This document shows, piece by piece, positions 13,140-41,110 of a DNA stretch of 41,110 nucleotides; the first letter of the stretch is position 1, and each line of letters opens with the position of its first letter. This DNA comes from Acidocella sp. GTDB taxonomy: Bacteria; Pseudomonadota; Alphaproteobacteria; Acetobacterales; Acetobacteraceae. The DNA lies in NCBI GenBank assembly GCA_027451225.1, contig DAIDJU010000025.1:1-41110 (forward strand), written 5' to 3'. The position numbers were made by a program, and so were the translations under genes. Under the pieces are notes generated by a model. It ran no database searches. It was given only the letters and a program-made list of their open reading frames with translations, and was not told the DNA's origin.

Positions 13140-13285
13140 AAAGATTGCTCCCCGTGCAATTTCATGCCCGCCCTCAATGCAGATTACGTGCCAAGGGCGT
13201 GATGCTGCTCAATGCTGGGTTTGCGCTGAAGACTTTGAGCGCCGCGCTTAAAAACTGGGCGATTTGCCGCCGGGATGAGCATGAA

Positions 13286-19016: not shown

Positions 19017-20681
19017 TTAGTGATGCTGTTTTTCCCGGGCGCGCAGCATGAAGCGTTGCAGCTTGCCGCTGGGCGTCTTGGGTAGTTGCTCGACGAACTC
19101 GATCTCGCGCGGATAGGCATGGGCGGAGAGCCGCTTGCGCACATGCAGGCGCAGCTCCTCGGCCAGCGCGTCGCTGGGGGTGTATTCGGGCTTGAGCACG
19201 ACGAAGGCCTTTACGATCTCGGTGCGTTCCGGGTCGGGTTTGCCGATCACCCCCACCTCCACCACCGCCGGATGCTCGATCAGCGCGCTCTCCACGTCGA
19301 ACGGCCCGATGCGATAGCCGGACGAGGTGATGACATCGTCATTCCGGCCGACGAAGGCGATCAGCCCGTCGGGCCCCAGCTCGGCGATGTCGCCGGTGCG
19401 GTAGTATTTCGGCCCGAGGGACGGGGTTTCCTTGTTGTAATAGCCGCTGAACCAGAACAGCGGCGAGGCGGCGAGGTCCACGGCAAGGTCGCCGGGGGTC
19501 TCGGGGCCAAGCTCGGCATCGTCCGGCCCGATGACCACGACGTGGAAGCCGGGCATGGAAAGCCCCGCCGCCCCGGCGCGCTGAGGGTGGTCGAGGCCGT
19601 GATGGTTGTTCACCATCATGCCTGTCTCGGTCTGGCCGTAATGGTCGCAGATCGGCGCGTCGAGCGCCGCGCGGAACCAGCGGATGACCTCGGGGTTGAG
19701 CGGCTCCCCGGCGCTGGAGACGGCGCGAAGCTGGCCCTTCACTGGTGCGGCAGCCTCCAGCCCCGCGGCCATGAGCAGCCGGTAGGCCGTGGGCGCGCCC
19801 GCGAGATTGGTGATGCCGTGGCTGGCGATGATCCGGTAGGTGCTCTCGGCGGTGAAGGGGCCTTCATAGAAGGTGGTGGTGTGGCCGAGCAGCAGCGGGC
19901 CGGTGACGGCGTAGTACAGCCCATAGGCCCAGCCGGGATCGGCGATGTTCCAGTATTTGTCCTCGGGACGCAGATCGATCGCGTACTGCATGTACACGCG
20001 GAAGGACAGCAGCGTGCGAATGGGCACGGGCACGCCCTTGGGCAGCCCAGTGGTGCCGGAGGTGGACATCATCAGGAACAAATCGCTGCCCTTGCGCATG
20101 ACCGGCGCAAATTCCGGGTTGGCGTCCTTAAGCGCGGCAATGAAGTCGACATCCCCCGCCGCCACGCTCCCGCCGCGTGCGACGACGGCCACTTGCGGGC
20201 GGTTGAGCACGTCATCCAGCTTGGGGCGGTTGGTTGGGTCGGTAACCACCAGCTTGGCGCTGGAGGTTTGCAGGCGCTGCTCGATGGCCTTGGGCCCGAA
20301 GGCGGTGAAGAGCGGCTGATACACCGCGCCCGCGCGCCAGGTGCCGAGGATGGTGATGAGCAGCTCCGGCGTGCGTGGCAGCATGCCCGCCACCACATCG
20401 CCCGGTTTTACCCCCAGCGCGGTGATGACATTGGCGAAGCGCGCCGCCTGCTCGCGCAGTTCGGCGAAGCTCAACGAGACGCGCTGGCCGTTGATCCCCT
20501 CCCATTCCAGGGCGATGCCGCCTTTGGCCACATGGGCGTCGCAACACTCCACGCAGACATTGATGCCGGTTTCCAGATCGCCGCTGAGTTGCGCCGCCAC
20601 ATCCATGGGGTTGAAGGCGGCGTAGAAGGCGGCATAGTCGGGGCGCACGGCGGCTTCCGGCTGCGGACCAGTGGCGGGCAT
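19017..20681 (-). CDS. AMP-binding acyl-CoA synthetase
   Basis: MSTSGTTGLPKGVPVP, YYRTGDIAELGPDGLIAFVGRNDDVITSSGYRIGPFDVESALIEHPAVVEVGVIG, LPKTPSGKLQRFMLR; start at MPATGPQPEAAVRPDYA. Confidence 0.92.
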   Translation of the reverse strand: MPATGPQPEAAVRPDYAAFYAAFNPMDVAAQLSGDLETGINVCVECCDAHVAKGGIALEWEGINGQRVSLSFAELREQAARFANVITALGVKPGDVVAGMLPRTPELLITILGTWRAGAVYQPLFTAFGPKAIEQRLQTSSAKLVVTDPTNRPKLDDVLNRPQVAVVARGGSVAAGDVDFIAALKDANPEFAPVMRKGSDLFLMMSTSGTTGLPKGVPVPIRTLLSFRVYMQYAIDLRPEDKYWNIADPGWAYGLYYAVTGPLLLGHTTTFYEGPFTAESTYRIIASHGITNLAGAPTAYRLLMAAGLEAAAPVKGQLRAVSSAGEPLNPEVIRWFRAALDAPICDHYGQTETGMMVNNHHGLDHPQRAGAAGLSMPGFHVVVIGPDDAELGPETPGDLAVDLAASPLFWFSGYYNKETPSLGPKYYRTGDIAELGPDGLIAFVGRNDDVITSSGYRIGPFDVESALIEHPAVVEVGVIGKPDPERTEIVKAFVVLKPEYTPSDALAEELRLHVRKRLSAHAYPREIEFVEQLPKTPSGKLQRFMLRAREKQHH

Positions 20682-20729
20682 GGCGTTTCCTCTGCGGTGT
20701 TTTATTTGTGGGAGGTACCTTGCGCTTGC

Positions 20730-20751
20730 CGGACATGGCCGTCGATGTCCG
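20730..20751. promoter_or_regulatory. Perfect 7-8-7 dyad CGGACAT-N8-ATGTCCG in the divergent promoter region
   Basis: Read directly between the AMP-ligase start (20681) and AraC-type regulator start (20782). Confidence 0.45.
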
Positions 20752-20781
20752 CTCTGGCATAATTTTCTTGACGATTTTACC

Positions 20782-21819
20782 ATGTTTGCCATGTCGGAGA
20801 GCAATGCCGAGCGGCGGATGATCCGCCCCAGCTTCGTGGATGAGGCGCTGGACTGCCTGCGCCGCAAGGGCCTGCCCGTGGCCCCGGTGCTGGAAGCCGC
20901 CGGGCTGGCGGAGCCGGTGAGCGAGGCTGTCTCCGCCGAGGCTTATGGCCGCCTATGGCTGGCGGTGGCCGAGGCCGTGCAGGACGAATATTTCGGCCTG
21001 GGTGGGCGGGCCATGCGGCCGGGCAGCTTTGTGCTGCTCTGCCGGGCCGTGCTGCATTCGGCCAATCTGGAGCAGGCGTTGCGCCGGGCCTTGCGCTTTC
21101 TGGCGGTATTGCTGGACGACCCGCGTGGCGAGCTGGTGCTGGCCGAGGGGCTGGCTCAGGTGGTGCTGCACGATGATGGCGCGGCTCGCTCGGCCTTCGC
21201 CTACCGCACATTCTGGATCATCCTGCACGGCATCATCTGCTGGCTGGCGGGGCAGCGGGTGCCGCTGCGCCTCGTTGATTTCCGCTGCGCCGAGCCGCCG
21301 GGGGTGGCCGATTACCGGCTGTTCTTCGGCGCGCCGGTGCGCTTTGCCCAGCCGCATAGCCGTATCGCCTTCGATGCCCGTTATCTCGCCTTGCCGGTGA
21401 TCCGCGATGAGGCGGCGCTGAAAACCTTCCTGCGCGGTGCGCCGGCCAATCTGCTGGTGCGCTACCGCTACGATGCCGGGTTGACCGCCAATATCCGCGC
21501 CCGGCTGCGCGAGCTGCCGGTTGGCGACTGGCCGGATTTCGACGCCATGGCGGGGCTGCTGCGGCTCTCGCCCTCCACGCTGCGCCACCGGCTGCGGCAG
21601 GAGGGGCAGAGCTGGAACGGCTTGCGCGATGAGATCCGGCGCGATCTGGCGATCTCGGCGCTTACCGGCACCAGCCGGGGCGTGGCGGAGATCGCCGCCG
21701 CCCTGGGCTTTGCCGAACCCAGCGCCTTCCATCGCGCCTTCCGCAAATGGACATCGAAAAGCCCCGGCGCATACCGCCGGGATTTTTTAGCGCTCGGGCC
21801 GGGCCAGCTCGCGCCGTAG
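20782..21819 (+). CDS. AraC family transcriptional regulator
   Basis: C-terminal AraC HTH pair: MAGLLRLSPSTLRHRLRQEGQSWNGLRDEIRRDLAISALTGTSRGVAEIAAALGFAEPSAFHRAFRKWTSKSPGAYRRDF. Confidence 0.92.
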   Translation: MFAMSESNAERRMIRPSFVDEALDCLRRKGLPVAPVLEAAGLAEPVSEAVSAEAYGRLWLAVAEAVQDEYFGLGGRAMRPGSFVLLCRAVLHSANLEQALRRALRFLAVLLDDPRGELVLAEGLAQVVLHDDGAARSAFAYRTFWIILHGIICWLAGQRVPLRLVDFRCAEPPGVADYRLFFGAPVRFAQPHSRIAFDARYLALPVIRDEAALKTFLRGAPANLLVRYRYDAGLTANIRARLRELPVGDWPDFDAMAGLLRLSPSTLRHRLRQEGQSWNGLRDEIRRDLAISALTGTSRGVAEIAAALGFAEPSAFHRAFRKWTSKSPGAYRRDFLALGPGQLAP

Positions 21820-30505: not shown

Positions 30506-30601
30506 TTCCCCCTCCGCAGCGGGCGGGGTAGTGTTGCCTAAATATGATTCATAAAAAGGAGGTATTGTGTCGATTGTCGCCTAAAGCAGATTAAAAATTA
30601 T

Positions 30602-30633
30602 GCGTTAAATTTGTTTTTGAGCAAATTTAGCGC
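30602..30633. repeat. Inverted repeat GCGTTAAATTTG-N8-CAAATTTAGCGC (11/12 bp)
   Basis: Read directly in the AT-rich interval upstream of the APC permease. Confidence 0.6.
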
Positions 30634-30696
30634 CTGTTTTTGGCATTTTGGCTGGATTTTGTACCCCTCAGGGGCGGATTTATTCAGTTTAGTGTG

Positions 30697-30712
30697 TGGC
30701 ATATTTTTTGCT
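30697..30712 (+). promoter_or_regulatory. Candidate sigma-54 (-24/-12) promoter TGGCATATTTTTTGCT
   Basis: Correct 10-nt spacing between GG and GC, matching TGGCAC-N5-TTGCW except C->T; 69 bp upstream of the permease GTG. Confidence 0.55.
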
Positions 30713-30780
30713 CACCAGTAAACCGGACTGACTGACCGATCCGCTTGATATCCGCCAACTATAAGCACTGAGGGGTTACT

Positions 30781-32502
30781 GTGAGCGACATCATATTTCC
30801 CGTGGGGCGCAAGACGACCGAATCCGGTTCCTTGCTCCGCACCATCGACTGGCGTGGCGCCTTCTGGGTGGCCAGCGGCGTTCCTGCCCTGGTTCTGTTC
30901 TCCATCGGCGGTATTGCCGACATGGTGGGCAATCTGTCCTTCATCATCTGGACCCTGTCGATGCTGATGGGCTTCGTGCAGTCCTTCACCTATGCCGAGA
31001 TCGCCGGGCTGTTCCCCAACAAATCGGGCGGTGCTTCGGTCTATGGCGCGGCGGCCTGGGTGCGCTACTCCAAGTTCATCGCCCCGCTCTCGGTGTGGTG
31101 CAACTGGTTCGCCTGGTCGCCGGTGCTCTCGCTGGGCTGTTCCATTGCGGCGGCTTACATTCTCAACGCGGTTGCGCCGATCCCGGCCGCCAATTCGCCG
31201 GAGGTCCTGCAGTGGATCGTGGCGCATGGCGCGTCCATCGCCGGTGGCCAGCAGGCGCAGGTGAATGCCGCCATCGCCGCTCTTACCCCGGATATCCGTA
31301 ACTGGACGTTGTTCAGTCACAGCCTCGGGCCGGTCGGCATTTCGCTGAACGCCACCTTCTTCATCGGCGCGATCATCATGCTGGTGACCTTCGCCATTCA
31401 GCATCGTGGTATTCTCGGCACCGCCAATGTGCAGAAATACATGGGCCTCGCGGTCATTATCCCGATGCTCATCGTCGGCATCGTGCCGCTGTTCAACGGC
31501 TCCGTGCATGCCTCCAACTATTCGCCGCTGGTGCCGCTGGCCAATTATGGCGCGCCGCAGCCCGGTAGCTGGAATCTGACCAACTGGACGATGATCCTGG
31601 GCTCCATGTTCATTGCAGCCTGGTCCACTTACGGGTTTGAAACAGCCGTGTGCTACACGTCGGAATTCCGTAATCCTGGTAGAGACACATTCAAGGCCAT
31701 CTTCTATTCCGGCCTGCTTTGCCTTGCGCTTTACATCCTGGTGCCGTTCACCTTCCAGGGCGCGCTTGGTCTTACCGGGCTGCTCGATCCTTCCATCGCC
31801 GCCGGTTCCGGCGTGGCCGCGGCCATGGCTGGCATGGTCGGCGGCGGGCCGATCATCCAGAACATCATGGTCATGCTGATGATCATGGCGCTGATGCTTT
31901 CGATCATGACTGCGATGGCCGGTTCCTCGCGCACGCTGTATCAGGGCTCGGTCGATGGTTGGCTGCCGCGCTACCTCACCTGGGTGAACGAACATGGCGC
32001 GCCGACCCGCGCGATGTGGACTGATCTGGTCTCCAACCTGCTGCTGCTGGCGGTGGCCTCCACCGATGCCACGAGCTTCTTCTTCGTGCTTGCGGTCTCA
32101 AACGTTGGTTATATCATCTTCAACTTCCTGAACCTGAATGCCGGTTGGATTCATCGTATCGACTCCGGCGCCACCAAGCGTCCCTACAAGGCGCCGACTT
32201 GGCTGCTGGGGCTTGGCACCTTGTTTGCTTTCGTCAATGCGATGTTCCTTGGCGCCGGCGCCAAGACCTGGAACGCTTCGGCACTGTGGGCAGGTTTCAT
32301 CTTCGCCGCGATGATCATTCCGGTGTTCTGCTTCCGTCACTTCATTCAGGACAAAGGAAAGTTCCCTGAGCAGATGCTGGAAGACCTGCATGTGGGCGGC
32401 TCCGGCGATACGACGACCAAACGCGCCGGTATCCTGCCTTACGTGGCGCTGGTGGCGGGTGTTGGTGTGGTGTTGCTCTCCAACTGGTTCTTCCACCTGT
32501 AG
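30781..32502 (+). CDS. APC superfamily amino acid/amine permease
   Basis: 573 aa, many TM segments; IDWRGAFWVASGVPALVLFSIGGIADMVGNLSFIIWTLSMLMGFVQSFTYAEIAGLFPNKSGGASVYGAAAW. GTG start with TGAGGGG upstream. Confidence 0.9.
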   Translation: MSDIIFPVGRKTTESGSLLRTIDWRGAFWVASGVPALVLFSIGGIADMVGNLSFIIWTLSMLMGFVQSFTYAEIAGLFPNKSGGASVYGAAAWVRYSKFIAPLSVWCNWFAWSPVLSLGCSIAAAYILNAVAPIPAANSPEVLQWIVAHGASIAGGQQAQVNAAIAALTPDIRNWTLFSHSLGPVGISLNATFFIGAIIMLVTFAIQHRGILGTANVQKYMGLAVIIPMLIVGIVPLFNGSVHASNYSPLVPLANYGAPQPGSWNLTNWTMILGSMFIAAWSTYGFETAVCYTSEFRNPGRDTFKAIFYSGLLCLALYILVPFTFQGALGLTGLLDPSIAAGSGVAAAMAGMVGGGPIIQNIMVMLMIMALMLSIMTAMAGSSRTLYQGSVDGWLPRYLTWVNEHGAPTRAMWTDLVSNLLLLAVASTDATSFFFVLAVSNVGYIIFNFLNLNAGWIHRIDSGATKRPYKAPTWLLGLGTLFAFVNAMFLGAGAKTWNASALWAGFIFAAMIIPVFCFRHFIQDKGKFPEQMLEDLHVGGSGDTTTKRAGILPYVALVAGVGVVLLSNWFFHL

Positions 32503-32618: not shown

Positions 32619-32668
32619 TCTTATTAACTGGCAAGAAACTCTTGCGAAGCCTGGTGGTGCAAACACTC

Positions 32669-34792
32669 ATGGACAATTTCTCCCTTTCCGGCCCGGCCGA
32701 TTACGTGGAAACTCTGTATGTGCGGGGTGGCGGCTCGGTCTCTTTGGGGCTTCTCAAAGGTGAGTCGATTGAGGTGCTGGACGAGCAGGGAGCGCAGCCT
32801 TGCGAACTTGGTATCGGCGGCGAAACGCCAAGGCTGATGCTGGATGAAACCTCTCTCCCCGGTGCCAGCTTTGGCTTCATCGCTGAAGATGACTGCGAGA
32901 TTTCCATTGCAGCGCTGGGTGTCCCGATGCTGCCGCATGAGCAAGCGGCGCCGACCGATCTGCGTGTGACGATTGCGCGCAAGAAGAAAACTTATCCGCC
33001 GCCGCTGGGGAAGGTGAAGGCGGAAATTCTTGTCAAAGCCGCGACAGCCGAGTCCTATAAGGTCGAGGAGGGTGATTACATCCAGATCATTGATGTCGAT
33101 GGCCAGCAATGTTCTGATTTCCTGGCCTTTGATGCGCAGGCTCTGGAATACGGCCTGGACGCCACAACCACGCGTACGCTGGGCGGGCATATTTATCCTG
33201 GTCCTGGTTTGTACTCGAAGTTCTTCGACGAGCGGATGCTGCCACTGGTCGAAGTGATTCGCGACACATGCGGCCGGCATGATACCTTCGCCCTGGCCTG
33301 CAGTGCGAAATCCTATGACGATGCGGGTTATCCTGGCCACGCCAATTGCTCGGATAATTTCAACACGGCACTGGCTGAACACGGCATCGCGCCGCGTCTG
33401 GGCTGGCCCGCGATCAATTTCTTCTTCAACACGCAAGTCGGCGCCGATGGTTCGATCGTGGCGGATGAGGCATGGTCGCGCCCCGGCGATTACGTGCTGA
33501 TGCGCGCGATGCGTGATCTGGTCTGTGCCAACTCCTCATGCGCGGACGATGTGTTCACCACCAATGGTTACAACCCGACGGATATTCTCGTCAGGATCTA
33601 TGATAAATCAGAGAATTTCTCAAAAGGGATTGCGCATCGCATGACACCGAATGCCGAGCCGCGGCTGACGCGGGAAAGTGGTTTTCATCCGGCCACATCC
33701 AAGCTGACGCGGAACTATGTCGAGAGCAACGGCTTCTGGTTGCCGGGCTGCTTTACCGAAAGCGGGCCCGTGGACGAATATGTCGCCTGCCGCGAAAATG
33801 TGGTGGTGACGGATCTCTCGACGCTACGGAAATTTGAAGTCACAGGGCCGGATGCCGAGAATCTGCTGGCGCTTGCGCTGACGCGCAATATCCGCAAACT
33901 CAGCATCGGACAAGTGGTGTACACCGCGATGTGCTACGAGCATGGCGGCATGATCGATGATGGTACCGTCATGCGTCTGGGACCCAATAATTTCCGTTTC
34001 ATCTGTGGTTCCGACTATTCCGGCGTGTGGCTGCGCGAACTGGCGGCCAAGCGCGGCCTGCGCGCTTTTATTCGCAACTCCACGGACCAGCTCAACAATC
34101 TCTCTCTGCAAGGTCCGCGTTCGCGCGAGCTACTGGCACCGTTGATCTTCACACCGCTGACGCAGCCTTCCATAAATGAGTTGAAGTGGTTCCGCTTCAC
34201 CATCGGGCGTCTCGGTGGGCCGCAGGGCATTCCGCTGGTGATCTCGCGTACCGGCTATACCGGTGAGCTGGGGTATGAGCTGTGGGTGCATCCGAGCAAC
34301 GCGGTTGCATTGTGGGATGCATTGGTCGGGGCTGGCGCGCAGCCGATGGGCTTTACCGCGCTGGACATGTTGCGTATCGAGGCCGGGCTGATCCTGGCCG
34401 GGCATGAATTCTCCGATGAGACGGATCCGTATGAGGCGGGCATCGGCTTTGCCGTGGCGGATCGCGATGAGGAGTTCATCGGCCGCGATGCACTGCGCCG
34501 CAGGGCGGCGAATCCGTTGCGTAAACTCGTTGGCCTGGTCATCGAAGGTGGCGAGCCCGTGCATCATGGCGATTGCGTGCATGTCGGCCGCGCCCAGGTG
34601 GGGGTGGTCACCAGCGCAATACGCTCGCCGGTGCTGCATCAGTCGATCGCCCTGGCACGCATCGACACCTATCATGCCGAGTTGGGCACGGCGGTGGAGA
34701 TCGGCAAGCTGGATGGCCAGCAGAAGCGCCTCTCCGCCAAGATCGTCCGGTTTCCGCATTACGATCCGGAAAAGACCAGGGTTCGCGCCTGA
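32669..34792 (+). CDS. tdm: Trimethylamine N-oxide demethylase (Tdm)-like DUF1989-GcvT fusion protein
   Basis: 707 aa: N-terminal DUF1989 region with several Cys (DGQQCSDF, RDTCGRHDTFALACSAKSYDDAGYPGHANCSDNF, VCANSSCADDVFTTNGYNPTDI) fused to a GcvT region (VVTDLSTLRKFEVTGPDAENLL, SRTGYTGELGYELWV, ALDMLRIEAGLILAGHEF). In a cluster with dmm-like genes and tmm. Confidence 0.85.
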   Translation: MDNFSLSGPADYVETLYVRGGGSVSLGLLKGESIEVLDEQGAQPCELGIGGETPRLMLDETSLPGASFGFIAEDDCEISIAALGVPMLPHEQAAPTDLRVTIARKKKTYPPPLGKVKAEILVKAATAESYKVEEGDYIQIIDVDGQQCSDFLAFDAQALEYGLDATTTRTLGGHIYPGPGLYSKFFDERMLPLVEVIRDTCGRHDTFALACSAKSYDDAGYPGHANCSDNFNTALAEHGIAPRLGWPAINFFFNTQVGADGSIVADEAWSRPGDYVLMRAMRDLVCANSSCADDVFTTNGYNPTDILVRIYDKSENFSKGIAHRMTPNAEPRLTRESGFHPATSKLTRNYVESNGFWLPGCFTESGPVDEYVACRENVVVTDLSTLRKFEVTGPDAENLLALALTRNIRKLSIGQVVYTAMCYEHGGMIDDGTVMRLGPNNFRFICGSDYSGVWLRELAAKRGLRAFIRNSTDQLNNLSLQGPRSRELLAPLIFTPLTQPSINELKWFRFTIGRLGGPQGIPLVISRTGYTGELGYELWVHPSNAVALWDALVGAGAQPMGFTALDMLRIEAGLILAGHEFSDETDPYEAGIGFAVADRDEEFIGRDALRRRAANPLRKLVGLVIEGGEPVHHGDCVHVGRAQVGVVTSAIRSPVLHQSIALARIDTYHAELGTAVEIGKLDGQQKRLSAKIVRFPHYDPEKTRVRA

Positions 34793-34831
34793 AGTCGTCC
34801 TGCTTATCAATGTTCATTTATGGGAAGTCTC

Positions 34832-35692
34832 ATGCCTAACGCGCAATATGTTCTCACGCTCTCTTGCCAGAACCGTCCTGGCATCGTTGCCGCTGTTACC
34901 ACCTATCTGTTTGAGTGCGGCGCCGATATCCGTGAGGCACAGCAATTCGACGATACCGAGAGCGGCAAATTCTTCGCCCGCATAGCTTTTGATCTTGCCG
35001 CAGGCTCCAGCATTGCCGCGCTGCGTGAAGGTTTTGTCGGCATCGCCGAGCAGTACAAGATGAATTACGCCATCAACGACCATGCCACGCCGCGCCGGGT
35101 TCTTTTGCTGGTCTCCAAGTTCGACCACTGTCTGGCCGATCTACTGTACCGCTGGCGCATTGGCGAGTTGAACGTGACGCCGACTGCCATCGTCTCCAAT
35201 CATAGCATCGAGAATTATGATGGCCTCGATTTGGGCGGGTTGCCTTTCTATCATTTCCCAATCAGCAAGGCCACCAAGATGGAGCAGGAGGCGCAAATCT
35301 GGGATTTGGTGAAGGAAACCAAGTCCGATTTGGTGGTGCTGGCGCGCTATATGCAAATCCTCTCCGACGCTCTGGCGCAGAAACTCTCTGGCCGCTGCAT
35401 CAATATTCACCACTCCTTCCTGCCGGGCTTCAAGGGGGCGAAGCCTTATCACCAGGCGCATGGCCGCGGCGTGAAGCTGATCGGCGCGACGGCGCATTAC
35501 GTCACCTCGGATCTCGATGAAGGCCCGATCATCGAGCAAGACGTGGAGCGCATCTCCCATGCCGACACGCCAGATGATCTGGTCCGCAAGGGGCGCGATA
35601 TCGAGCGCCGCGTGCTCGCCCGCGCCGTGCATTACCACCTGGAAGATCGTGTCATTCTGAATGGCACCAAGACAGTGGTGTTCGCGAGCTGA
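34832..35692 (+). CDS. purU: Formyltetrahydrofolate deformylase
   Basis: N-terminal ACT region ([33 protein letters not shown]) plus formyltransferase core ([70 protein letters not shown]). Confidence 0.96.
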
Positions 35693-35859
35693 ATCAGATT
35701 GACAAGGGTAATTCTCTATAATTATCGTTTGTACTTGGAGAGAAAGTTTTTCGGAGCGTTTGGTTGGGCCGGAATGTCGTAAGGCAAGGTTTTTACCATC
35801 AAACATGGCGCCGCTCCGGTGGCGGTGCCGGCTCCATGATCGTTGCCTGTCTGTTGTAT

Positions 35860-35880
35860 GCCTCTGGCGCTGCCAGGGGC
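35860..35880 (+). repeat. Strong hairpin GCCTCTGGC-GCT-GCCAGGGGC in the dmmD leader
   Basis: 9-bp stem (one G-U), 3-nt loop, 32 nt before the start codon, no U-tract. Confidence 0.5.
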
Positions 35881-35911
35881 AACTCTTCACCCTAACCACG
35901 AAGGCCATCTC

Positions 35912-37045
35912 ATGACTCGCTCCTGGCGTTACGCCGCTCTTGCTTCCCGCCACCGCGCTCTTGGTTCCAAGCTCGAAGACTGGAACGGCATGCCAACGGC
36001 CTGGACATACGCTTCCGACGTGCAGGATCATCATGTGGCGATCCGCACCAAGGCGGGGCTCATGGATGTTTCGGGGCTGAAGAAGGTGCATCTGCACGGG
36101 CCCCACGCCTCGGCGGTGCTGGATTATCTGACCACCCGCGATGTTTCCAAGATCACGCCGGGCAAGTCGGCCTATTGCTGCTTCCTCAACGAGGCTGGAA
36201 AATTCATCGACGATGGCATTCTCTACCGCACCGGTCCGAACTCCTGGTTCGTGGTGCACGGCTCTGGTGCGGGGCATCAGGCGCTGACACAAGCGGTGGT
36301 GGGGCGCAATGTCACCATGCTATTCGATGACGATTTGCTCGATCTGTCGCTGCAGGGGCCTTTGGCAGTGGATTTCCTGGCCAAGCATGTGCCGGGCATC
36401 CGCGATCTCAAATATTTCGCCCATATGGGCGCCACTTTGTTCGGCAAGCCGGTGATGATCTCGCGCACCGGCTATACCGGTGAGCGTGGTTACGAAATCT
36501 TCTGCAAGGCCGAGGATGCCGAGCTGATATGGGATACCATCCTGGAGGACGGCAAGGAGATGGGCATCATTCCCTGCTGCTTTACCGCACTCGACCTGCT
36601 GCGCACCGAGAGCTATCTGCTGTTCTACCCCTACGACAATTCCGAGATGTACCCGTTCGTTGACGAACCTTGCGGCGATACGCTGTGGGAGCTGGGGCTG
36701 GACTTCACCGTATCCCCGGGCAAGACCGGCTTTCGCGGCGCGGAAGAGCATTACCGCCTGAAGGGTAAGGAGCGTTTCAAGATCTTCGGCGTGCTGGTGG
36801 AGAGCGACAAATCCGCCGCCCCTGGCGACAAGTTGATGGCCGACGGCAAGGAAGTTGGCGTCATCACCTGCCCGATGGTCTCCACGCTCACCGGCAAGTC
36901 CATAGCCATCGCCCGTATGAACGTGCCTTACGCCGTGCATGGCGCAAAGCTGACGGTCGAAGGCTCGCTGGGCGGCGTTCCGGCCATCGCGCATACGCTG
37001 CCCTTCGATGACCCGAAGAAAGCCAAACGCACGGCGGTGGGCTGA
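35912..37045 (+). CDS. dmmD: GcvT-like aminomethyltransferase; DMA monooxygenase-associated THF-binding protein (DmmD-like)
   Basis: TKAGLMDVSGLKKVHLHGPHASAVLDYLTTRDV, SRTGYTGERGYEIFCKAEDAELIWDTIL, ALDLLRTESYLLFYPYD; first of four genes matching the described dmmDABC order. Confidence 0.8.
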   Translation: MTRSWRYAALASRHRALGSKLEDWNGMPTAWTYASDVQDHHVAIRTKAGLMDVSGLKKVHLHGPHASAVLDYLTTRDVSKITPGKSAYCCFLNEAGKFIDDGILYRTGPNSWFVVHGSGAGHQALTQAVVGRNVTMLFDDDLLDLSLQGPLAVDFLAKHVPGIRDLKYFAHMGATLFGKPVMISRTGYTGERGYEIFCKAEDAELIWDTILEDGKEMGIIPCCFTALDLLRTESYLLFYPYDNSEMYPFVDEPCGDTLWELGLDFTVSPGKTGFRGAEEHYRLKGKERFKIFGVLVESDKSAAPGDKLMADGKEVGVITCPMVSTLTGKSIAIARMNVPYAVHGAKLTVEGSLGGVPAIAHTLPFDDPKKAKRTAVG

Positions 37046-37048
37046 GCC

Positions 37049-37603
37049 ATGAACACCAGCCGTCCGCTCTACAAACCCTTCGCGCTGGACCCGTCCGGTC
37101 TCGCGCACCTGATTGTCACCAGCCTCGATACCCCGCCCGAGGGTATCGAGGACAGCTTCGATAATATCGAGGTCTGGACGGTGAAACATGCTGGTCCGGG
37201 TGTGCCGGTCCTGGCTGCGGGAGGGATTCGTCCCTTCCGTTCCACCACCGAGCAGTTGGCGCAGCTTGGGCATCGGCTGGGGCGCATGACGGCGGGGTTG
37301 AGGTTTTACGCTATCGGTTCCGAGGCCTTCATCTGGGATGCGTATAACATCGCCATTGCCGCGGGCATGCATCCGTCCGAGATTTTCCTGCACCGCGCTG
37401 GACCATTCGTCCGGCGCGTTTATTGTTCGCATTGCCGCACCATGGTCGAGGATGTTCCGGCGAACATCGTCACCTGCCCGTCCTGTGAGGCATCCTTGTT
37501 CGTGCGCGATCATTTCTCCCGTCGTCTTGCCGCCTTCATGGGCGTGAAGGTGGATGCGGAAGTGCCGGGTGAAGTTCCGGCGGCGGAGGTGTTTACGTCA
37601 TGA
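37049..37603 (+). CDS. dmmA: Dimethylamine monooxygenase subunit DmmA-like protein with C-terminal zinc-ribbon-like CxxC pair
   Basis: YCSHCRTMVEDVPANIVTCPSCEASLFVRDHFSRRLAAFMGVKVDAE; position in a dmmDABC-like operon. Confidence 0.75.
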   Translation: MNTSRPLYKPFALDPSGLAHLIVTSLDTPPEGIEDSFDNIEVWTVKHAGPGVPVLAAGGIRPFRSTTEQLAQLGHRLGRMTAGLRFYAIGSEAFIWDAYNIAIAAGMHPSEIFLHRAGPFVRRVYCSHCRTMVEDVPANIVTCPSCEASLFVRDHFSRRLAAFMGVKVDAEVPGEVPAAEVFTS

Positions 37604-38514
37604 AGCTGAAGATCGAAGCCATTGCCACGCTGACGCCCGGCATCCGTAAGTTCACCCTCGCGCCGGTTGATGGTTCCCCCTTGCCGCATGCCGGTGCGGG
37701 CTCGCATGTGGTGCTGGAAATTCCTGGGCCGAGCCGTATTTGGAAAAACGCCTATTCCATCACCTCCGCCGCCGATGCCCCGGCCTATGAGATCATGGTT
37801 CGGCGCGTGGAGAAATCCCGCGGCGGTTCCGCCTGGCTGCACGACCATGCCAAACTTGGCGATGTGCTGGAGGTATATCCGCCACAGAACCTGTTTGCGC
37901 CGCAGCGTTTGGCCAAGCGGCATTTGCTGCTTTCGGCGGGTATCGGCATTACGCCGTTTCTCTCCTATGTTCGGCTGGCCGGGCTGGCCTATGAGTTCCA
38001 CCATTGCTGCAAGCCCGAGGACGAAGCCGCATTCCGCGCGCTGCTGCCCTCTGGCCCGCAGATGACGCTGCACACCAGCCGCCATACGCTGAACCTCGAG
38101 GCATTGCTCAAGAGCCAGCCTCTGGGCACGCATCTTTCCGTTTGCGGGCCTGAGAGCTTCATGGACATGGTGCTGGCCACGGCCGCGCATGCGGGCTGGC
38201 CGGCGGCCAAGGTGCATAAGGAGAGCTTCGGCGGCGCCACGGGCGGGGAACCATTCGTCGCGCATATGAAGCGTTCTGGTGTGACCGTGACGGTCGGGCG
38301 CGAGGAATCGTTGCTCGACGCGATGGAAGCCGCTGGCCTTGCTCCGCCCTGCCTGTGCCGTGGCGGCGCTTGCGGGGAATGCAAACTCACGGTGCTGGAG
38401 GGCGTACCCGACCATCACGACCATTATCTATCTGAGATCGAGCACGCTGCCAACGATGCGGTCATGACCTGCGTCTCACGCGCGAAAACCCCCGAACTGG
38501 TATTGGATTTCTAA
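37600..38514 (+). CDS. dmmB: Ferredoxin-NAD(P)H reductase-type subunit with C-terminal 2Fe-2S domain (DmmB-like)
   Basis: FAD/NAD-binding reductase (AGAGSHVVLEIPGPSRIWKNAYSITSA, HLLLSAGIGITPFLSYVRLAG) and 2Fe-2S APPCLCRGGACGECKLTVLEG...MTCVSRA. Confidence 0.82.
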   Translation: MKLKIEAIATLTPGIRKFTLAPVDGSPLPHAGAGSHVVLEIPGPSRIWKNAYSITSAADAPAYEIMVRRVEKSRGGSAWLHDHAKLGDVLEVYPPQNLFAPQRLAKRHLLLSAGIGITPFLSYVRLAGLAYEFHHCCKPEDEAAFRALLPSGPQMTLHTSRHTLNLEALLKSQPLGTHLSVCGPESFMDMVLATAAHAGWPAAKVHKESFGGATGGEPFVAHMKRSGVTVTVGREESLLDAMEAAGLAPPCLCRGGACGECKLTVLEGVPDHHDHYLSEIEHAANDAVMTCVSRAKTPELVLDF

Positions 38515-38516
38515 CC

Positions 38517-39572
38517 ATGAAACTGAGCCTGAAACCGCAAGAAACCTACCGGGACGATTATACGTTCAGCAACTCGGACGAAGCGATCTTGCGCTTCCCG
38601 TTCCCGTTCCCGGAAGATGGCTACATGTACTCCGTGAACATGGAGCCGCATGTGCGCGGTGGTGCGACGCCGGTTTACGATAAGGTGTTCGACGTTGACG
38701 AGCACTATATCGGCGATATGGCCGATCGCGCCATCACGCTGGACCAGGATCCGCTGCGCTGCCAAGTGCTGCCGCATATGGAAACCGCCGAGTGGGACAC
38801 GCTCGAACTGCTTATGGAGAGTTTGGCGAACGATTATCCCGAGCATTTCTCCCTGACCAAGAATGGCGACAAGTGGCACTGGATTAACCGCCCGTTGGAG
38901 ATCGATCAGACGTTCACCTTCGGCCGGAAGGAGACACTGCCCTACGATCCGTTCGAGTACATTACTCGCCAGATGCAAGGTGATTTTTCGTTGCAGGACC
39001 AGCGCGACAACAACCTGTACATGGATGGCGGCATGGTCACCTCGCAGGCTGACTGGTCGCTGAATTTCGATGTCGGCATGTCCTTCCATGAATGGCATGG
39101 CCCGGTGCCGCTGGCGCATCAGGCCGGTGTGTTCGATCGTGCGTTGCAGTACCTGCTGCGCCTGCAATACGGCAAGCCGGTGCGCCGCCTGAACTGGACG
39201 ATGACGGCCAATCCGCGCCTCGACACATCGCCGGAGAATTATCCGCTGTGGGGGCCTGAGAAGGCGGCGATCACGCCGGAGAATGTTGGCCACCGCATGT
39301 GCCTGCGCGTGGAGTTGCAGACCCTCCACCGCCTGCCGCGTTCCAACGCCATTTTGTTCTCTATCCGTGGTTATCTCATTCGACTGGAAGAGTTGGTCAA
39401 GGTGAAGAAATGGGCGGTCCGCATGCATCGCGTGATCCGTGACCTGCATCCGCAGATCGCCGAGTACAAAGGTTTGCCGCGCTACCGCCAATACGTGGTG
39501 GATTACTTCGCGCCCTTCGACGATGGCCGCACGCTGAACTCCGGCATCGCCGCCGAACAAGACAGTATCTGA
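38517..39572 (+). CDS. dmmC: DUF3445 / heme-dependent oxidative N-demethylase family protein (DmmC-like)
   Basis: Conserved WHWINRPLEIDQTFTFGRKETLPYDPFEYITRQMQGDFSLQ, NLYMDGGMVTSQADWSLNFDVGMSFHEWHGPVP, RLNWTMTANPRLDTSPENYPLWG. Confidence 0.82.
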   Translation: MKLSLKPQETYRDDYTFSNSDEAILRFPFPFPEDGYMYSVNMEPHVRGGATPVYDKVFDVDEHYIGDMADRAITLDQDPLRCQVLPHMETAEWDTLELLMESLANDYPEHFSLTKNGDKWHWINRPLEIDQTFTFGRKETLPYDPFEYITRQMQGDFSLQDQRDNNLYMDGGMVTSQADWSLNFDVGMSFHEWHGPVPLAHQAGVFDRALQYLLRLQYGKPVRRLNWTMTANPRLDTSPENYPLWGPEKAAITPENVGHRMCLRVELQTLHRLPRSNAILFSIRGYLIRLEELVKVKKWAVRMHRVIRDLHPQIAEYKGLPRYRQYVVDYFAPFDDGRTLNSGIAAEQDSI

Positions 39573-39708: not shown

Positions 39709-41052
39709 TTAGTTGTTGGCCAGGAAGGCCTCCAGGCTGTCGTCTGTCTGCTGCATCCAAGGCGTCTTCAGCGGCGGTGCCATGGTGCCGGTGATGGCGG
39801 AGCGGAAGCTGTGATGGCGGTAGGTCAGCACGTCCTCTTCCTTGTGGTGCTTCCATTCCTTGAACTGCTCGGCCATGATTTCCGGCTTGAAGTCCGGGTA
39901 ATCGGTCAGGTCCAGCAGATCGCGGATATAGCCGCACTGGAAGTCGATGTCGTCGGAAGCGGTTTCGCTGGCTTCTTCCTTTTCGCGGTAAGCCATGTTG
40001 TCGGCCTGCATCTCCTCAGCGGAGGGCAGGTTGATCTTGCCGAGGATGACATCGCGTGCGAACCAGGCCTGGGCGTCGAACATGTTGAAGGTGTAGTACT
40101 GGTCCTGCATGCCCAGATACAGCAGCTTGTGGTTCTTCTCGAACACCACGCCCTTATAAAGGCTCAGCGGCCACAGACGGTTTTTGGTCTTCAGGCGCAG
40201 CGCGTCCGGCAGGAAGGGGAAGTGGTGCTGGTAGCCAGTGCAGATCACGATCGCATCGACTTCGCGGCTGGTGCCGTCTTTGAAGTGAGCGGTATTGCCT
40301 TCAACGCGCACCAGCAGTGGAACTTCAGTGAAGGCTTCGGGGAAGGCGAAGCCCATCGGCGCGGTGCGGTAGGAGAAGATGATCTCCTTGGCGCCGTATT
40401 TGTAGCACTGGGTGCCAATATCCTCGGAGGAGTAGGAACTGCCGATGCACAGCACCCGCTTGCCTTTGAACTCGGCAGCATCGCGGAAGTCGTGGGCGTG
40501 AAGCACGCGGCCATGGAACTGGGAGAGGCCGGGGAAGTCCGGCACGTTCGGGGTCGAGAAGTGGCCTGATGCCACCACGATGTAATCGAAGACCTCGGAA
40601 TAGACGTGATCGTTTGCCAGATCATGCACCGTGACGGTGAATTTCCCGCTGGACTCGTCATAAGTCACTTCGCGTGCCGGCGTGCGGAAACGGATGAAGC
40701 GGCGGAAATTGCCTTTGCGCAGGCGCCCGACCATGTAGTCATGCACCACGGCGCGGGGCGGGTAAGAGGGGATGGGGCGGCCGAAATGTTCTTCGAAGGA
40801 ATAATCGGCAAACTCCAGCGCTTCCTTGGGGCCGTTGGTCCACAGATAACGATACATGGAGGCATGCACAGGTTCGCCATATTCATCGAGTCCCGTGCGC
40901 CAAGTGTAGTTCCACATGCCGCCCCAGTCTTCCTGCTTTTCAAAGCAGACGATTTCAGGGATCTTTATACCGTTCTTCTCAGCAGCCTCGAAGGCGCGGA
41001 GCTGCGCAAGCCCGCTGGGGCCGGCACCGATAATGGCAACACGAAAACTCAT
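39709..41052 (-). CDS. tmm: Trimethylamine monooxygenase (FMO family)
   Basis: [150 protein letters not shown]. Strong resemblance to recalled Roseobacter-clade Tmm. Confidence 0.93.
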
Positions 41053-41110
41053 GTAGGTACCTTCATGCATTGCGACGGTGCCGTTTTGCCGGTTGAACGC
41101 AAAAGCGGAC

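Follow-up and report, generated by a model that had tools for sequence, protein, structure and literature searches.

The question of what controls trimethylamine and TMAO breakdown was only recently answered, for a marine Roseobacter, in which the regulator is TmaR (PMC13390433). In Ruegeria pomeroyi, TMA catabolism is controlled by the AraC-type activator TmaR and by TmoR, a repressor of tmm, and in Ruegeria and its relatives tmaR lies beside the methylamine genes (PMC13390433). The terms sigma, RpoN and NtrC are absent from that paper. A cluster encoding a TMAO permease and demethylase is also on record for Methylocella silvestris (Zhu et al. 2014, as cited in PMC5520151 and PMC13390433). 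A literature search for sigma-54 together with TMAO demethylase, or for Acidocella together with trimethylamine, returned nothing relevant.

We analyzed a stretch of 41,110 nucleotides from an Acidocella MAG (the window), in which genes in the order tmoP-tdm-purU-dmmDABC follow a candidate sigma-54 promoter core at 30697-30712 on the plus strand. We put at about three in four the probability that this core is an NtrC-activated sigma-54 promoter placing TMAO and dimethylamine catabolism under nitrogen control. The tmoP, tdm and tmm families were called by NCBIfam scores above cut-off (Table 1). The leading gene had been described in the original prediction as an amine permease; it is indeed a permease, of the APC superfamily, and "amine" can be refined to the TMAO permease family. 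Several Acidocella relatives repeat the order tmoP-tdm-dmmDABC with a convergent tmm, and in the window tmm is likewise convergent to the tmoP cluster and outside the reach of the tmoP promoter. Transcription of tmoP probably depends on a promoter of its own, since fadD, the gene upstream, is followed by a terminator-like hairpin. This inverted repeat was considered as an activator site and dropped, as it is terminator-like, has a T run and lies 3' of fadD in both genomes that have it. In G012 and G014 (L028/L044 and L029/L045) the TMAO permease is shorter than that of the window by ~35 residues, around query residues 133-171, and occupies a single open frame. At locus L052, tdm is found on the opposite strand ~7 kb from tmoP and is 51% identical to the tdm of the window, which points to rearrangement of the island or replacement of tdm there.

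Table 1. Positions of genes and candidate regulatory features within the 41,110-nt window
Feature	Position	Strand	Details
Second sigma-54 core, TGGCACGTAATCTGCA	13178..13193	-	11/12 consensus; 38 nt 5' of gene 13139-11739 (glutamine-synthetase-like, ATG start)
NtrC-type site, CGCCCAGTTTTTAAGCG	13245..13261	-	upstream of second core; 11.4 bits, 9.3 in orthologue
Second NtrC-type site, TGCCTAAATATGATTCA	30535..30551	.	14.5 bits; 53 bp from first
NtrC-type site, AGATTAAAAATTATGCG	30588..30604	.	12.6 bits, weak; 109 bp before the -24 element
Terminator-like hairpin	30602..30633	+	14 pairs, 4-nt loop, T run, z -3.75
Dyad GTTTA-N7-GCA-N7-TGC-N7-TAAAC	30687..30723	.	37 bp, containing the core; candidate operator of a second regulator
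Predicted transcription start	30722..30724	+	inferred from the -12 position
tmoP, TMAO permease family (APC superfamily)	30781..32502	+	NF053774, 871.6 bits vs cut-off 690
tdm, TMAO demethylase	32642..34792	+	NF053776, 1109.5 bits vs cut-off 1100
purU, formyltetrahydrofolate deformylase	34820..35692	+	family assignment
dmmD-like GcvT protein	35843..37045	+	family assignment and comparison of neighborhoods
Dimethylamine monooxygenase genes (DmmA-like, reductase-like, HODM-like subunits)	37049..39572	+	
tmm, trimethylamine monooxygenase	39709..41070	-	NF058570, 799.7 bits vs cut-off 675

The candidate core, TGGCATATTTTTTGCT, has the -24/-12 layout T-GG-CATATTTTTT-GC-T, and rereading the sequence confirmed the letters, the coordinates and the 10-nt spacing of GG and GC that had been reported for it. 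It thus has the form GG-N10-GC and is near TGGCAC-N5-TTGCW; it agrees with TGGCACG-N4-TTGCW in 10 of the 12 positions, and its end is separated by 68 nt from the tmoP GTG at 30781. Taken alone the element is a reasonable candidate, nothing exceptional and only suggestive, because, when the 275-bp intergenic region was shuffled (first order), 1.1% of trials gave a match as good, and seven further 10-11/12 consensus matches lie inside the window. In the 2.6-Mb genome the pattern TGGCAN6TTGCW occurs nine times, compared with two occurrences of a backwards control; about five of the nine sites are intergenic by ORF reading, and two of them precede APC-type permeases. The tmoP core scores low with a matrix made from glnB cores (9.4 vs 19-24 bits), and with this glnB-only sigma-54 matrix it ranks eighth within the window. 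Two other matches were rejected as chance: TGGCACCTTGTTTGCT at 32214 is internal to the tmoP reading frame, and TGGCATGGCTCTTGCT overlaps the start codon of rpoN.

Conservation was judged against the upstream regions of 11 other Acidocella tmoP genes, of a distant paralogue (L043) and of 72 tmoP homologues at greater distance (68-75% identical; from Methylocella, Mesorhizobium, Xanthobacter and others). Within the genus, A. aquatica (L051) carries the core in its tmoP promoter; its locus matches that of the same-genus genome G009, which places the genome of the window in Acidocella. Seven of the 11 have the exact TGGCA/TGC core (L019, L021, L023, L024, L025, L044 and L045). The exceptions are two in which the -24 GG is broken by a one-base variant (L020, TTGCA; L022, TAGCA) and two that have no core (L026 and L042, second copy in G015). 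The genus-limited conservation lifts the putative core above chance, because it keeps the same position in orthologous Acidocella promoters whose surroundings, in the more distant orthologues, are 38-43% identical to the window over 250 bp, and because it is present in none of the 72 distant homologues. The paralogue L043 has a perfect sigma-54 consensus. This gene (G036, contig C58) is 47% identical to tmoP, its core reads TGGCACGAAGTTTGCT, and a palindrome, GCACAAAATGTGC, stands ~75 bp 5' of the core.

RpoN is encoded once in the genome from which the window comes (PF04552, E 5e-65), as are five true sigma-54 activators. NtrC carries GAFTGA, NtrX does not, and three more activators besides NtrC do. 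The motif in this NtrC is informative, because the NtrC proteins of Caulobacter and the Rhodobacterales are without GAFTGA and act with sigma-70 (PMC10274813). In other genomes NtrC and NtrX were called by score, length and tandem position. An NtrC-type protein is the sole activator present in all 13 genomes checked, a provisional count as some genomes are incomplete, and two genomes (G012, 94% complete; G008, 80%) have NtrC and NtrX only.

Nearly all Acidocella glnB promoters have a sigma-54 core of the form TGGCAY-N6-TGCW, which illustrates the appearance of such cores in the genus. From 26 glnB promoters of the genus we learned a 17-bp NtrC-type matrix (consensus TGCCTAAAATTTAGGCA), and the corresponding dyad stands 99-102 bp 5' of the core in 25 of them. 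The E. coli NtrC site has the same TGC-N11-GCA frame. Upstream of amtB in the genome of the window the same motif was found (19.8 bits) along with a sigma-54-like core; at the sigma-54 sites of three other genes of this genome there was no NtrC-type motif (at most 8.1 bits). We infer that the motif binds NtrC because its targets are glnB and amtB. A scan with E. coli-type NtrC patterns (TGCAC...GTGCA) gave nothing useful, whereas the genus's own glnB motif gave useful sites, and this motif could be used for reading the nitrogen regulon of uncultured Acidocella.

Two NtrC-type sites precede the tmoP core in the window (Table 1). Both are degenerate and individually weak, with 3-4 mismatches to the consensus pattern and a shuffle P of 0.01. 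The site aligned to the one nearer the core scores 15.8 bits in a 95%-identical orthologue, and only two positions reach at least 14 bits in 127 kb of sequence from the genome of the window, one of them that at 30535. Elsewhere in the main clade the scores upstream of tmoP are 15.8 (L019), 16.8 (L021), 23.0 (L022), 22.5 (L045) and 12.5 bits (L044), and just 6.5 bits in L020, so that six of the seven main-clade promoters, the window included, have sites of 12.5-23.0 bits. The seven promoters total 111.5, against 16.8 +/- 13.3 for column-permuted matrices, none of 200 of which reached the total; the promoters are related, and this is not a formal probability. For the second tmoP group (L023-L025 and L043) the sites are NtrC-like and individually weak (P 0.06-0.10), and the total is 37.7 against 9.2 +/- 8.6 (again 0 of 200, again from related promoters and not a formal probability). 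NtrC-type dyad sites are thus present upstream of tmoP, strongly so in the main clade as a set.

The core in the window also lies inside a 37-bp dyad, which is perfect at four tmoP promoters (G000, G034, G026 and G001) and at no other site in the 38 Acidocella genomes; it is found with 1-2 mismatches at tmoP of G008, G012 and G014. The dyad is kept in L020 and L022 though one G of the -24 GG has changed, and L023-L025 and L043 have the core but no dyad. The arrangement suggests a sigma-54 promoter that is overlapped, in one clade, by a candidate operator of another regulator. An AraC (HTH_18) gene directly beside tmoP was found in none of the eight Acidocella genomes examined, and the AraC gene of the window (20671-21819) is ~9 kb from tmoP, beside acyl-CoA genes.

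Such a dyad raises the question of whether it, and not the core, is the conserved object: an operator at a sigma-70-type promoter, with the -24/-12 resemblance as a by-product. The restriction of its perfect form to tmoP promoters and its retention where the GG is broken would fit, but the asymmetry of the core (TGGCA vs TTGCT) is itself conserved, the second group retains a core with no dyad around it, a simple scan found no plus-strand sigma-70 site, and this reading gives no account of the NtrC-type sites, which were derived independently; we regard it as rather unlikely. Still less probable is a sigma-54 promoter driven by a different enhancer-binding protein, of the AcoR or PAS type, responding to the substrate and not to nitrogen status. 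NtrC alone is common to all the tmoP genomes, two of which have it with NtrX and nothing else, and NtrC-type sites are enriched 5' of tmoP, although the three additional GAFTGA activators in the genome of the window and the lack of strong NtrC-type sites in the second group could be cited in favor of another activator. That the consensus was matched by chance in AT-rich intergenic DNA seems highly improbable: the shuffle P of ~0.01 and the several other sites in the window that match as well or better would allow it, but the core is retained at the corresponding position in Acidocella promoters that have otherwise diverged.

A further reading, compatible with the NtrC/sigma-54 explanation, is a sub-case of it, in which a repressor or co-regulator specific to the pathway has its operator over the promoter, giving an AND gate for nitrogen starvation and substrate. 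The core, the upstream sites and the dyad do occur together in the same main-clade promoters, but no regulator gene was found, and none of the eight genomes examined has an AraC gene beside tmoP; we advance the AND gate only tentatively.

A second promoter of the same kind may be present in the window on the minus strand, before a glutamine-synthetase-like gene whose neighbors encode a PhyH protein, a deacetylase-family protein and a polyamine-type ABC transporter. In a 92%-identical orthologue (G034), TGGCACGCAATGTGCA occupies the same place as TGGCACGTAATCTGCA and is accompanied by a matching NtrC-type site. The window may therefore hold two nitrogen-controlled amine operons. Additionally, at another locus of the same genome (L163, contig C12, minus strand, 2884) a perfect sigma-54 consensus, TGGCACGGTGGTTGCT, stands before a gene for an APC-type permease, after which comes a glutamine-synthetase-like gene; no NtrC-type site accompanies it.

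Under the NtrC/sigma-54 explanation, RpoN-RNA polymerase would bind the -24/-12 core as a closed complex. Upon nitrogen limitation, phosphorylated NtrC would occupy the dyad sites ~110-160 bp upstream, reach the polymerase by DNA looping and remodel the closed complex. Transcription would then start near 30723 and read tmoP-tdm-purU-dmmDABC as a single message. The cell would import TMAO and demethylate it via dimethylamine to methylamine, mainly for nitrogen, and TMAO is probably a reserve nitrogen source for Acidocella. The original prediction had tied the island to RpoN and nitrogen control, a tie that is supported by the genus-limited conservation of the core, by RpoN, by an NtrC with GAFTGA, by NtrC as the sole activator common to the 13 genomes checked and by the NtrC-type upstream sites, which were defined independently on glnB. 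There is nothing unusual in the NtrC/sigma-54 mechanism itself; its apparent use to control TMAO catabolism seems new. If these acidophiles do have a nitrogen-starvation promoter here, the pathway known from the Roseobacter would supply them with nitrogen under global control, and the case would be a simple one for comparing how promoters are rewired.

The tmoP promoter resembles the NtrC-dependent sigma-54 promoters of the glnAp2 type, including those of Acidocella glnB and amtB, in its -24/-12 core, in the nitrogen-acquisition genes downstream and in the TGC-N11-GCA dyad sites ~100 bp upstream. It differs in driving TMAO and dimethylamine catabolism, in the degenerate sites of the window species, paired 53 bp apart, and in the 37-bp dyad over the core. 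The Methylocella silvestris cluster has the same permease, Tdm and Dmm families, and its permease (L056) is 75% identical, yet no sigma-54 core lies upstream of the permease there. With the TmaR/TmoR system of Ruegeria the locus shares the pathway genes that are regulated (tdm, dmm and tmm), although in the eight Acidocella genomes examined tmoP has no adjacent AraC gene that would correspond to tmaR. It is possible, if doubtful, that control of TMAO and methylamine use was rewired from a pathway-specific regulator to global NtrC/sigma-54, with the 37-bp dyad as a substrate checkpoint. Such a two-signal promoter, if true, is not described for methylated-amine use.
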